Assembly: GCA_013423385.1 (NCBI GenBank) | Contig: BLZA01000007.1 | Coordinates: forward strand, 682,001-746,000 | From: Naganishia liquefaciens | Taxonomy: Eukaryota > Basidiomycota > Tremellomycetes > Filobasidiales > Filobasidiaceae | Direction of reading: 5' to 3' | Length of the DNA: 64,000 nt | Shown: piece after piece, positions 52,571 to 56,124 of the stretch | Layout of the letters: every line of letters begins with the position of its first letter | How positions within the stretch are numbered: position 1 is the first letter of the stretch | Notes under the pieces: model-generated | What the model saw: only the letters and a program-made list of their open reading frames with translations | Told to the model about the DNA's origin: nothing | Databases searched by the model: none | Translations under genes and position numbers: made by a program

Positions 52571-53214
52571 TCAGTCACTCGCGTACTCAATCGTTGCTTG
52601 TGGAGGTGACTTGTACACCTGATATAAATCACAATCATGAAGGAAAGCTGGTGATGTCACGATGTTGGAAGATGACTTACCGTCTTCTGGACCCGCTCCA
52701 AAGCTTGAGTAGCTGCTTGAGTGGTAGCTACATCGCCACTAGAGGCCCCGTCGCTGCTGGAAACCTTATCAAGCTTATGTTCCGTCCATGCCGCTCCCAT
52801 CATTTTATGGCCGATGTTGTCGAGAAGCAATGCTACCTGATCCAATCCCCAATTCCAGTTTTGCACCGTGAAGAGATCCCGAAGCCGACTCACATCGGGT
52901 TCCTTTCCCAGTCCACACAAGTCCAGCTCTTTGAGCAAATCCAGCTGTTCCAGGACGCTCCACCCCTGGACGAGAGGGATCAGGGGTGGTCGAAATGTTC
53001 GGAACCAGGTAACACGTTGTTCCACATCACGCTTGAGGACTCGAAGCATTACGACTGGGAAGCGCACACCGGGAGGGAAGGTGAGCGTGCGCAATCGTGG
53101 ATCCAAGCTCGAATGTGGGAACTTACAGAAGATCATGATATGCTTAGGATCCATTTTTGAAAGTTCGATTGCATCGCTTTGACCGTTTACCCAACGGCCG
53201 AGAGGGGTGTCCAT
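52571..53214 (-). CDS. Unknown protein
   Basis: Three probable exons. The first begins MDTPLGRWVNGQSDAIELSK at 53214 and ends at a GTAAGT donor near 53125. The second carries most of the protein: VMLRVLKRDVEQRVTWFRTF, PPLIPLVQGWSVLEQLDLLK, DLFTVQNWNWGLDQVALLLD and a Ser/Thr-rich end. A last short exon would give VYKSPPQATIEYASD. About 170 residues in all. I do not recognise a family; the middle is Leu/Trp-rich and helical in character, with no clear membrane segment. A TATATATA stretch at 53332-53339 lies about 118 bases upstream of the ATG, and a 39-base tandem duplication lies just beyond it. Splice sites are good, so it is probably a real gene, but the 3' exon is uncertain. Confidence 0.45.
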
Positions 53215-53367
53215 GTCTGTCTAGGGATAGGATGGCTTCAAAACCACACAAGCGTAGATATTCGTTATCGAGTCGCAGTGATATCGTGCGGGCTCTGCGA
53301 TAGAGAGGGAATGGCAGGCAAGCCAGTCCTCTATATATATTGCCATCAAAAGGGATTCCGTTGATTA

Positions 53368-53445
53368 CCATCGTACGATGATTGGCCGTTTGATGCCAAA
53401 GGACTCCCATCGAACGATGATTGGCCGTTTGATGCTAAAGGACCA
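53368..53445. repeat. 39-bp tandem duplication
   Basis: Two head-to-tail copies, 53368-53406 and 53407-53445, sharing the core cgatgattggccgtttgatg and differing at about four positions. It lies about 155-230 bases upstream of the start codon of the unknown minus-strand gene. Confidence 0.88.
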
Positions 53446-53861
53446 TGGGCATGGAAGAGGCGGAAGGCAGCTCGGAAAGCCAGAATATTACGTGATATGT
53501 TACTTCCTCAACAAGAAAGGCTTCAGATTGACAGGCGGCAAGTGTGGTGCGAGTCTTTACTTGATAGGAAAAACATCAGTCGTGCTTGGTCGAGGAAGAA
53601 CTGCTTTAAGATCGCAGGATTCGTCATCAGCACACATGCTGCTGAACGGATGAGCTATTGGATCAGGAGGTACTATCTCCGTCCATCTTACTGAGCAAGG
53701 AGGAAGACTACTTTCAAGGCGTTCTCTATTCTCTGCAACGATCTGAGGGAGTTGATCGAAAAGAACCTGCAGTCAACAGCGATGGATACATTATCGCTCA
53801 AAACGCGCGTCACAGATTTGCATTGCGCCACCGCCATTGCCCATCACGTCCATTCAACGGT

Positions 53862-53973
53862 GCATGAGAATAAGATTGGAATCGAGGCTGGTCCACAAAG
53901 GACGATGTACGTCTACACCATTGTATTACAAACAGCTGATTCTATGGCTAAAGAAGTGAAGCGAAAAGCGAAG
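53862..53973 (-). promoter_or_regulatory. Conserved 3' UTR element of H2A with 6-bp/4-nt stem-loop
   Basis: On the H2A (minus) strand this stretch runs from CTTCGCTTTTCGC to ATGCAC and matches the H2B 3' UTR along its whole length at roughly four bases in five. The core hairpin is GGTGTA-GACG-TACATC (complement of 53904-53919), 6 bp with one G-U pair and a 4-base loop, starting 147 bases after the H2A stop. A second small stem, GTCC/GGAC, follows it. Confidence 0.75.
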
Positions 53974-54066
53974 GTAGAAAGAGGAGGTAGGGCAAGTCAT
54001 CTAGGCAGGGGAGGTCAGCATGATAAAGGTGCAAGGTATCGCCCATGATGCTTACAGACAAGTCCC

Positions 54067-54587
54067 TTAAACTTCCTGCGAGGTAGCACCCGAGGCCTTC
54101 TTGGACTTGGCGGTCTTGGCGGGCAAGAGTTCGGAGTGGATCTGGGGCAAGACACCACCCTGGGAGATGGTGACACCACCGAGGAGCTTGTTCAACTCTT
54201 CGTCGTTTCGGATGGCGAGCTGCAAGTGTCGGGGGATGATTCGCGACTTCTTGTTGTCTCGGGCGGCGTTACCGGCCAATTCGAGGATTTCGGCAGACAA
54301 GTATTCGAGAACGGCTAAGAAGGGAGGGTAAGATGATGAAAGACAGAGGCGAAAGGAGTCGGCTCACCAGCAAGGTAGACAGGGGCACCGGCACCGATTC
54401 GCTGAGCGTAGTTTCCCTTCTTCAACAATCGGTGGATACGACCGACGGGGAACTGCAAACCTGAGAGGGAGTCAGAAGAAGGAACGGAGGTGCAGTGCTC
54501 GAGAGACGTACCAGCCTTGGACGATCGGGACGCAGACTTGACAGCGGGAGCGTCGGAGGACTGAGCCTTACCACCTTTGCCGGACAT
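54067..54587 (-). CDS. HTA1: Histone H2A
   Basis: Exons 54512-54587, 54368-54460 and 54067-54314 encode 138 residues. Core histone that pairs with H2B in the nucleosome. The N-terminus [20 protein letters not shown] is followed by the H2A signature [20 protein letters not shown], then [40 protein letters not shown] and [19 protein letters not shown]. The C-terminus GATSQEV keeps the SQE motif phosphorylated after DNA damage in fungal H2A, so this is the main, H2A.X-like form. It diverges from H2B with 643 bases between start codons. Arginine is almost always CGA. Its 3' UTR carries the element described separately. Confidence 0.97.
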
Positions 54588-55230
54588 TGTGAAAGTTGCT
54601 GGGTTGGTTGGGTGTTGGAAGAGGTGGTGCTAGTGGTGGTCGCGAAGACTGGTTGAGGAATGAGATGGAGTTGTCGACGAGGTGAAGTGGAAGTGAGCGA
54701 AATCGTGCTTGATATATACTCGTTTCTATCAAAACGGCGCTGGACGCGATGACAACAGAAGCGACGAGGGCGGGACGCGTTTGCGTTGTTCCCGCGGTTG
54801 TCTCCCGTATGGATCACATCTTTGGATCCGCATTCTGATCTTACGTAATTAGTCACGTGATCATTGTTTTGGCTGAGGAAGTGATCTCCGATACGTCGGA
54901 GAAAGTGATCTGATTTGGGGTACTGGCATACACGGGATGCCATTAGTGATCGGCACATCAAGAGATTTTGCGGGCACACCGCGGATCGAGCCTGACGTTT
55001 GTTGACAGAGTGATGGAACAGCTGATGGAACCCGATCGAGCTGAGCCTAGCGTGTGTTTCCACTGACGCGTTGCGCGTCCGTCGCCTGAGCGTGTCGGCC
55101 AGGAAAGGAGTATATAGTTCCACACTGTCACATCCCCCTTCCCCCGTTGCGAATCATCGTCTCCATCACCAACTCGTATTCACACACCACCCACTTCAGT
55201 TCTCAACCCAGCCCAAACACCACTATCACA
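54588..55230. promoter_or_regulatory. Divergent histone H2A-H2B promoter
   Basis: Shared 643-base control region. TATA boxes face outward: AGTATATATC (complement of 54711-54720) for H2A and TATATAG at 55111-55117 for H2B, each about 115-130 bases from its ATG. Near the middle are a CACGTG box (54854-54859), two direct AAGTGATC copies (54879-54886 and 54903-54910), and between them the palindrome TCTCCGA-TACG-TCGGAGA (54885-54902). This looks like a compact two-way control module for S-phase expression; the binding factors are unknown. Confidence 0.7.
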
Positions 55231-55773
55231 ATGGCCCCCAAGTCCGCTGCTCCCGGTACGTTGCAGACTGCCCTCATCATCACTGATTCACCCCTTTGCT
55301 GACCTTTCTCCTCTTCCAGCTTCCACCGCCTCCAAGGCCCCTGCCACCAAGGCTCCCGCTGCCAAGGCTCCGGCCAAGAAGACCGCCGCCCCCAAGGAAG
55401 CCGGTGACAAGAAGAAGCGATCCAAGCGAAGGGTCGAGTCCTACTCGTCGTACATCTACAAGGTCCTCAAGCAGGTCCACCCCGACACTGGTATCTCCAA
55501 CAAGGCCATGTCCATCTTGAACTCTTTCGTCTCGGACATTTTCGAGCGAATCGCCGCGGAAGCTTCCAAGTTGGCCGTCTACAACAACCGATCCACCATC
55601 TCGTCGCGAGAGATCCAGACCGCTTGCCGATTGATCCTCCCCGGAGAGTTGTCCAAGCACGCCATCTCTGAAGGCACCAAGGCTGTCGTAAGTGTCCCTC
55701 TTGACTGCTGTGTGCGAAAACGAGTCCTGATTTCGATCTCTTCCAGACCAAGTTCTCCTCTTCCACCAAGTAA
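55231..55773 (+). CDS. HTB1: Histone H2B
   Basis: Exons 55231-55255, 55320-55687 and 55747-55773 encode 139 residues. The Ala/Lys/Pro-rich tail ([20 protein letters not shown]) is followed by the H2B fold: [60 protein letters not shown] and [20 protein letters not shown]. The C-terminus [16 protein letters not shown] contains the lysine that Bre1/Rad6 ubiquitinates in other fungi. The final exon encodes only nine codons including the stop. Arginine is nearly always CGA. It pairs with the divergent H2A gene. Confidence 0.97.
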
Positions 55774-56124
55774 AGCTTTGGCTTCTGGTTGGACCGTTAT
55801 TTTACGCCTTCGCTTTTCGCTCCCATTACCTTTAGTCGTAGAGTCTGCTGTTTGTATCACAAAGGTGTAGACGTACACCGTCCCAGTGGACCGGCTTTGA
55901 TTCCAATCATTTATGCACATTGCATTGTTTGAAATCTGTCCTTGCCTGCATTTTCATTAATCTTGCTTCGCCTTGGCTCGTTTACCCTACGTGATGGCCA
56001 TGAACTTTCGAGCCTGCGAGACGACGGGGACAAGTAGAGATATTATGAAGATGACTGTTACAACCATTCCTGTCGACATCTATCGAATTCCACACATCAG
56101 CCTGTCCGGCGGTGTTGAATCCTT
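55774..56124. other. H2B 3' region and convergent gap to the pol gamma gene
   Basis: The left two thirds is the H2B 3' untranslated region with the conserved element (55808-55918). The rest holds the 3' ends of both convergent transcripts. No gene is seen. Confidence 0.55.
55808..55918 (+). promoter_or_regulatory. Conserved 3' UTR element of H2B with 6-bp/4-nt stem-loop
   Basis: Matches the H2A 3' element along about 110 bases. The core is GGTGTA (55864-55869), loop GACG (55870-55873), TACACC (55874-55879): a perfect 6-bp stem and 4-base loop, preceded by CACAAA and starting 90 bases after the stop codon. A second stem GTCC-CAGT-GGAC follows at once, then the conserved GATTCCAATC. Confidence 0.75.

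Follow-up and report, generated by a model that had tools for sequence, protein, structure and literature searches.

In this study, we analysed a 64,000-nt stretch of the genome of the basidiomycete Naganishia liquefaciens (contig BLZA01000007.1, positions 682,001 to 746,000; hereafter the window), in which the genes for histones H2A and H2B are divergently arranged and each is followed by a copy of a shared element. We found that this element opens with a short pyrimidine-rich motif, that the motif or a variant of it follows the stop codon, on the sense strand, in each of the core histone genes found in the genome, and that the two copies at H2A and H2B retain the pairing of a closed structure with three hairpins. 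Judging from the sequence, we regard it as probable that these features make up a two-part control element of histone mRNA 3' untranslated regions (UTRs), consisting of the motif and the H2A/H2B junction.

A linear motif downstream of the core histone genes

The genome searched comprises 19.4 Mb in 28 contigs. The genome searches were run exon by exon and the match counts are lower bounds, so that a histone gene may have been missed. The core set consists of one H2A, one H2B, two H3 (H3a and H3b) and two H4 genes (H4a and H4b), and the window carries the sole canonical H2A and the sole H2B found genome-wide. In addition, we found one H2A.Z-like gene, one H1 gene and one CENP-A-like gene; the gene ends, like the labels H2A.Z and CENP-A, are our own reading. 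A PF00125 match at C7:43k was read as TAF6-like and excluded from the histone set. The features of the window needed here are as follows.

54067..54587, minus strand: histone H2A gene from start to stop codon, introns included (exons assigned by eye)
55231..55773, plus strand: histone H2B gene from start to stop codon, introns included (exons assigned by eye)
53862..53973, minus strand: whole homology block, H2A copy
55808..55918, plus strand: whole homology block, H2B copy
53960..53973, minus strand: bipartite motif CTTCGCTTTTCGCT downstream of H2A
55808..55821, plus strand: bipartite motif CTTCGCTTTTCGCT downstream of H2B
54001..54055, minus strand: candidate 55-nt intron in the H2A 3' UTR (GTAAGC ... 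CTGAC ... CCTAG, splice-site-like sequence)

The two blocks can be aligned over their whole length, about 112 nt, with small gaps and 80% identity. This bears out, coordinates included, a preliminary description of the sequence, which had reported a shared element of about 110 bases and about 80% identity after both genes; the exact 13-mer with which it was said to open, CTTCGCTTTTCGC, is indeed present in both blocks (53961-53973 on the minus strand, 55808-55820 on the plus strand). When a 126-nt H2B stretch was compared with its own genome by DNA similarity search, only the stretch itself and the H2A copy (80%, E = 3e-20) were returned. A dispersed repeat, which the same description had named among the findings that would count against it, was rejected since this search returned no copies at unrelated loci.

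All six core histone genes found have the composite CTTCGY-N1-3-TTCGCT past their stop codon, on the sense strand. It starts 93 nt past the stop in H2A, 34 nt in H2B, 93 nt in H3a, 72 nt in H3b, 40 nt in H4a and 60 nt in H4b. The candidate intron would lie just past the H2A stop codon, and its removal would shorten the H2A distance, which is 93 nt in the DNA, to 38 nt. By eye, H2B, both H3 genes and H4a also appear to have an intron close to the end of the coding region. The motif takes the form CTTCGCTTTTCGCT in H2A, H2B and H4b, CTTCGCCTTTTCGCT in H4a, CTTCGCCTTCGCT in H3a and CTTCGTTCTTCGCT in H3b. The occurrence of the 13-mer at H4b, with variants at both H3 genes and H4a, goes beyond what had been described before.

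The exact 13-mer occurs three times in the genome, both strands counted, and these occurrences are the sense 3' flanks of H2A, H2B and H4b, compared with one match for the reversed 13-mer used as a control. Since the word had been fixed beforehand from H2A and H2B alone, the match at H4b counts as an independent success, and the occurrence of the 13-mer at histone genes is more than chance. The six 200-nt UTRs had a shared-word score of 57, and the highest value reached was 52 among 150 dinucleotide-shuffled sets and 50 among 150 random genomic sets; when H2B was left out, the score was 44 and 150 shuffled sets peaked at 40. In whole-UTR alignment, three of 12 pairs (H2A/H2B, H4b/H2B and H3b/H4b) beat all 200 shuffles.

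Searching the genome with CTTCGYN{1,3}TTCGCT returned 45 matches, 21 forward and 24 reverse, six of which belong to the core histone genes. None of the 45 lies beside H1, H2A.Z or CENP-A, whose flanks carry half-sites only, and these may be due to chance. Open reading frames (ORFs) of 150 aa or longer contain 15 of the 39 non-histone sites in sense; another 10 sites run antisense to ORFs of this length, and the last 14 coincide with no such ORF. A Pfam search of 10 ORFs upstream of seven of these 14 sites gave no family above its curated cut-off. Three non-histone sites outside long ORFs, L031 (C1:32246), L041 (C4:110253) and L072 (C25:129008), are one mismatch off the exact 14-mer and, from their sequence, are possible further targets. 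At C14:1195228-1195301 there are six tandem 12-bp units, each giving rise to CTTCTCTTTTCGCT, likewise one mismatch off the histone 14-mer. With up to two mismatches, the 14-mer had 298 genomic matches against 324 for its control, thus no wider enrichment was seen.

In a search confined to perfect pairing, no exact 13-nt complement that might serve as a U7-like guide was found on either strand beyond the three histone sites. A 14-mer search of viral contigs was uninformative, and the H4 protein had no match in them.

A structured core shared by H2A and H2B

Within the homology blocks, we delimited a core that both copies are predicted to form as RNA, with minimum free energy (MFE) structures as listed.

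53879..53942, minus strand: structured core of H2A, a closing stem with three hairpins, 23 bp (MFE -18.9 kcal/mol for a 68-nt stretch)
55841..55903, plus strand: structured core of H2B, the same 23 pairs with one extra in its own MFE structure (-20.4 kcal/mol for a 67-nt stretch)
53904..53919, minus strand: central hairpin GGTGTA-GACG-TACATC of H2A, with one G-U pair
55864..55879, plus strand: central hairpin GGTGTA-GACG-TACACC of H2B

The closing structure pairs GARUC with GAUUC and GCUG with CRGC and encloses three hairpins, and the MFE structure of the H2A 68-nt stretch is exactly this closing stem with its three hairpins. The central hairpin, including the change to TACATC that leaves a G-U pair in H2A, and a second stem GTCC/GGAC, whose loop is TTTGT at H2A but CAGT at H2B, had been noticed earlier, and both were found as described; we now see that they sit inside the larger closed structure.

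Comparison of the two copies showed that 20 of the 23 core pairs are identical and that the other three carry a one-sided change with pairing kept, no pair being broken. The differences are concentrated in unpaired positions (9 of 22 columns, against 3 of 46 paired columns; Fisher p = 0.001). On the 68 aligned columns RNAalifold scored -20.05, whereas 1000 column shuffles averaged -9.24 (z -4.0, p 0.001); on 120 columns z was -3.0 with p 0.007. None of 1000 dinucleotide-preserving simulations equalled the core, and when the same 12 changes, one of them a deletion, were placed at random, all pairs were kept in 10 of 5000 trials. As a structure common to two copies, the core exceeds chance. A tRNA gene was rejected, ARAGORN finding none within 53700-56100, and a search for the hairpin among prokaryote genomes gave one uninformative match, in Microbispora.

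Around the two genes, the neighbouring ORF convergent with H2B was identified by Pfam as mitochondrial DNA polymerase gamma; its best named matches are from Naganishia, with 64-68% identity over residues 190-700. On the other side, positions 53363-53440 of the window hold two tandem 39-nt copies, 90% alike, upstream of a minus-strand ORF (52657-53214), and each copy contains ATTGG, which is a CCAAT box on the opposite strand.

Alternative explanations

Several results weigh against a histone mRNA control element made of motif and junction. The evidence base is one genome, and the composite pattern was formulated after the six sites were known. It is no rarer than the reversed pattern that served as control (45 matches against 68); since the composite is not rare in itself, the surprise lies in its presence at all six core histone genes, in sense and close to the stop. 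The six sites do not amount to six independent events, because two lie within one duplicated block and others in paralogues. Since 14 non-histone sites fall outside long ORFs (150 aa and above), other mRNAs may carry the motif as well. In the whole-UTR alignments, nine of the 12 pairs, including H3a/H3b and H4a/H4b, were not above shuffles, from which it also follows that the motif stands out from diverged surroundings.

For the core, the boundaries and the structure were drawn from the very copies on which the tests were then run, and none of the 23 pairs shows a two-sided compensatory change. As single sequences, the 112-nt blocks folded no better than their shuffles (z -0.7 and -0.6, with 50 and 51 of 200 shuffles as good), and the MFE structure of the H2B block closes differently from the core. 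The cut-out cores taken singly did moderately well (z -2.6 and -1.8, with 1 and 10 of 200 shuffles as good). Among 2000 genomic 68-mers with a G+C content near that of H2A, 58 and 29 folded as well, and a stretch from H3a folds equally strongly (-21.7). A covariance model of the core (R1), run on seven loci holding both H3 genes, both H4 genes, H1, H2A.Z and CENP-A, gave nothing convincing, the best match reaching 9 bits with E = 2. The search downstream of the H3 and H4 genes that had been proposed in the preliminary description thus split: the motif is present at all four genes found, and the hairpin core was not recovered by the covariance model. Its claim of a histone-specific 3' UTR element holds mainly through the opening motif and not through the hairpin.

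Among other explanations, the motif could be a double-stranded DNA site, that is, a downstream enhancer or terminator site, which reads AGCGAAAAGCGAAG on the other strand. This sequence resembles the GCGAAA-type sites of G1/S transcription factors (SBF/E2F-like), for which histone genes are a natural target. The genes are also closely spaced, with about 200 nt between the end of the H2B element and the convergent DNA polymerase gamma ORF, and TTTCGCG occurs in one scanned histone promoter, that of H3b. However, all six sites keep one orientation relative to transcription at 34-93 nt past the stop, and none of the 45 composite sites lies in a histone promoter; in the scanned promoters there are only scattered TTCGC or GCGAA words, a single CTTCGY, at H4a, and two copies of ACGCGT in the stretch separating H2A from H2B. 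We consider a DNA site unlikely, and the constancy of strand and position favours action of the motif as RNA.

It is also conceivable, and in our estimate distinctly unlikely, that a 3' flank was copied in inverted orientation and kept alike by gene conversion, the core having no function. The block exists in only two copies, which form an inverted pair about 1.8 kb apart flanking the divergent genes, and no similarity between H2A and H2B is evident past its limits, both of which speak for this reading. However, copying leaves the motif at H3 and H4 unexplained, and also the way in which the differences cluster in loops while every pair stays intact. Coincidence among common words such as CTTCG and TTCGC, for which the reversed composite control speaks, is very improbable given that the exact 13-mer occurs only at three histone genes and that the shared-word score lies above all 300 control sets.

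The remaining alternative is that the hairpin, as had been put forward in the preliminary description, is a divergent relative of the animal stem-loop, here with an SLBP homologue acting on it; we regard this as extremely improbable. In its favour, the central hairpin (GGTGTA-GACG-TACAYC in both copies) has a 6-bp stem and a 4-base loop and starts with GG, and CACAAA precedes it in H2B; this is a likeness of shape alone. The animal consensus has a U-rich loop and a YYY/RRR stem, whereas the loop here is GACG and the stem GGUGUA/UACAYC. No match to RF00032 (Histone3) at E<=10 was obtained in the H2A/H2B stretch 53700-56100 or in the seven other histone loci, and its best genome-wide score was 14.9 bits against a gathering threshold of 34, with 75 of 1614 candidates scored. 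The SLBP domain (PF15247) reached 14.8 bits against a cut-off of 27 in an exon-by-exon genome search run without a positive control, and this weak match turned out to be the wrong frame of an ORF with transportin-3/importin-13 Pfam domains. U7 (RF00066) reached at best 15.8 bits against 34, with 65 of 1763 candidates scored and likewise no positive control. The hairpin was not found at H3 or H4, and it is one arm of a larger junction, which counts against kinship. The other half of the earlier proposal, an independent analogue of the animal stem-loop, is on sequence grounds the live option. Like the metazoan system of stem-loop, SLBP and U7 snRNP, we have here a 3' UTR cis-element of the core histone class near the stop, with a central hairpin of the same dimensions. 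Unlike it, what the core histone genes have in common is a linear stretch rich in pyrimidines; our searches located the hairpin at H2A and H2B alone, where it lies inside a junction, and the histone genes have introns.

A proposed two-part element and its fungal setting

In the two-part control element that we favour, the first part would be the bipartite CUUCGY-N1-3-UUCGCU, located 34-93 nt past the stop in every canonical core histone gene found. It would be transcribed within the mRNA and is most likely bound by a sequence-specific RNA-binding protein; recognition of the motif in core histone mRNAs by such a protein is the most economical reading of the sequences. The protein would handle the six core histone mRNAs as one set, for example by S-phase-limited stability, translation or 3'-end formation. 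The second part would be the 64-nt RNA junction of closing stem and three hairpins, for which H2A and H2B are the only sites found, and which probably adds control common to both halves of the H2A-H2B dimer.

PUF proteins bind sites of the form UGUANAUA, and no such site was found when 300 nt of each of the six UTRs were searched. A CNYUCNYU 8-mer (CCTTCGCT or CCTTCGTT) overlaps the motif in five of the six histone genes, and none does so at H4a. This is the type of motif attributed to Ssd1, which in yeast, according to PMC8934651, associates mainly with 5' UTRs and barely binds RNA with a single motif. Given the overlap at five of six genes, the 5' UTR bias and the weak single-copy binding, Ssd1 is a candidate and not a result.

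Budding yeast offers another comparison, its histone mRNAs being fungal and, in line with our searches here, without the animal stem-loop or SLBP. In PMC5706932, yeast histone mRNAs are described as polyadenylated and devoid of stem-loop and SLBP, with a contribution of the 3' UTR to cell-cycle control through a trans-acting binding factor said to be unknown; polyadenylation is also given in PMC8551654. The passages considered from the two sources name no motif common to all core histone UTRs, whereas here there is one, in a basidiomycete. Among the papers listed by our literature searches, no title or opening of an abstract concerned such a motif in fungal histone UTRs.

More tentatively, the sequences may point to a histone mRNA code of the fungus's own, in which a linear site unites the core histone regulon and a structured RNA ties H2A to H2B. 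Such a code would belong to a fungal lineage without detectable SLBP, and might have a putative RNA-binding reader of its own and keep the dimer partners in step.

For the question of how fungi without the animal stem-loop limit histone mRNAs to S phase, a motif that follows every core histone gene found, and that in its exact 13-mer version is restricted to such genes within the searched genome, provides both a bait for a 3' UTR-binding factor and a target for mutation. The junction restricted to H2A and H2B, if it works, would be a case of matching two subunits of a complex at the RNA level.
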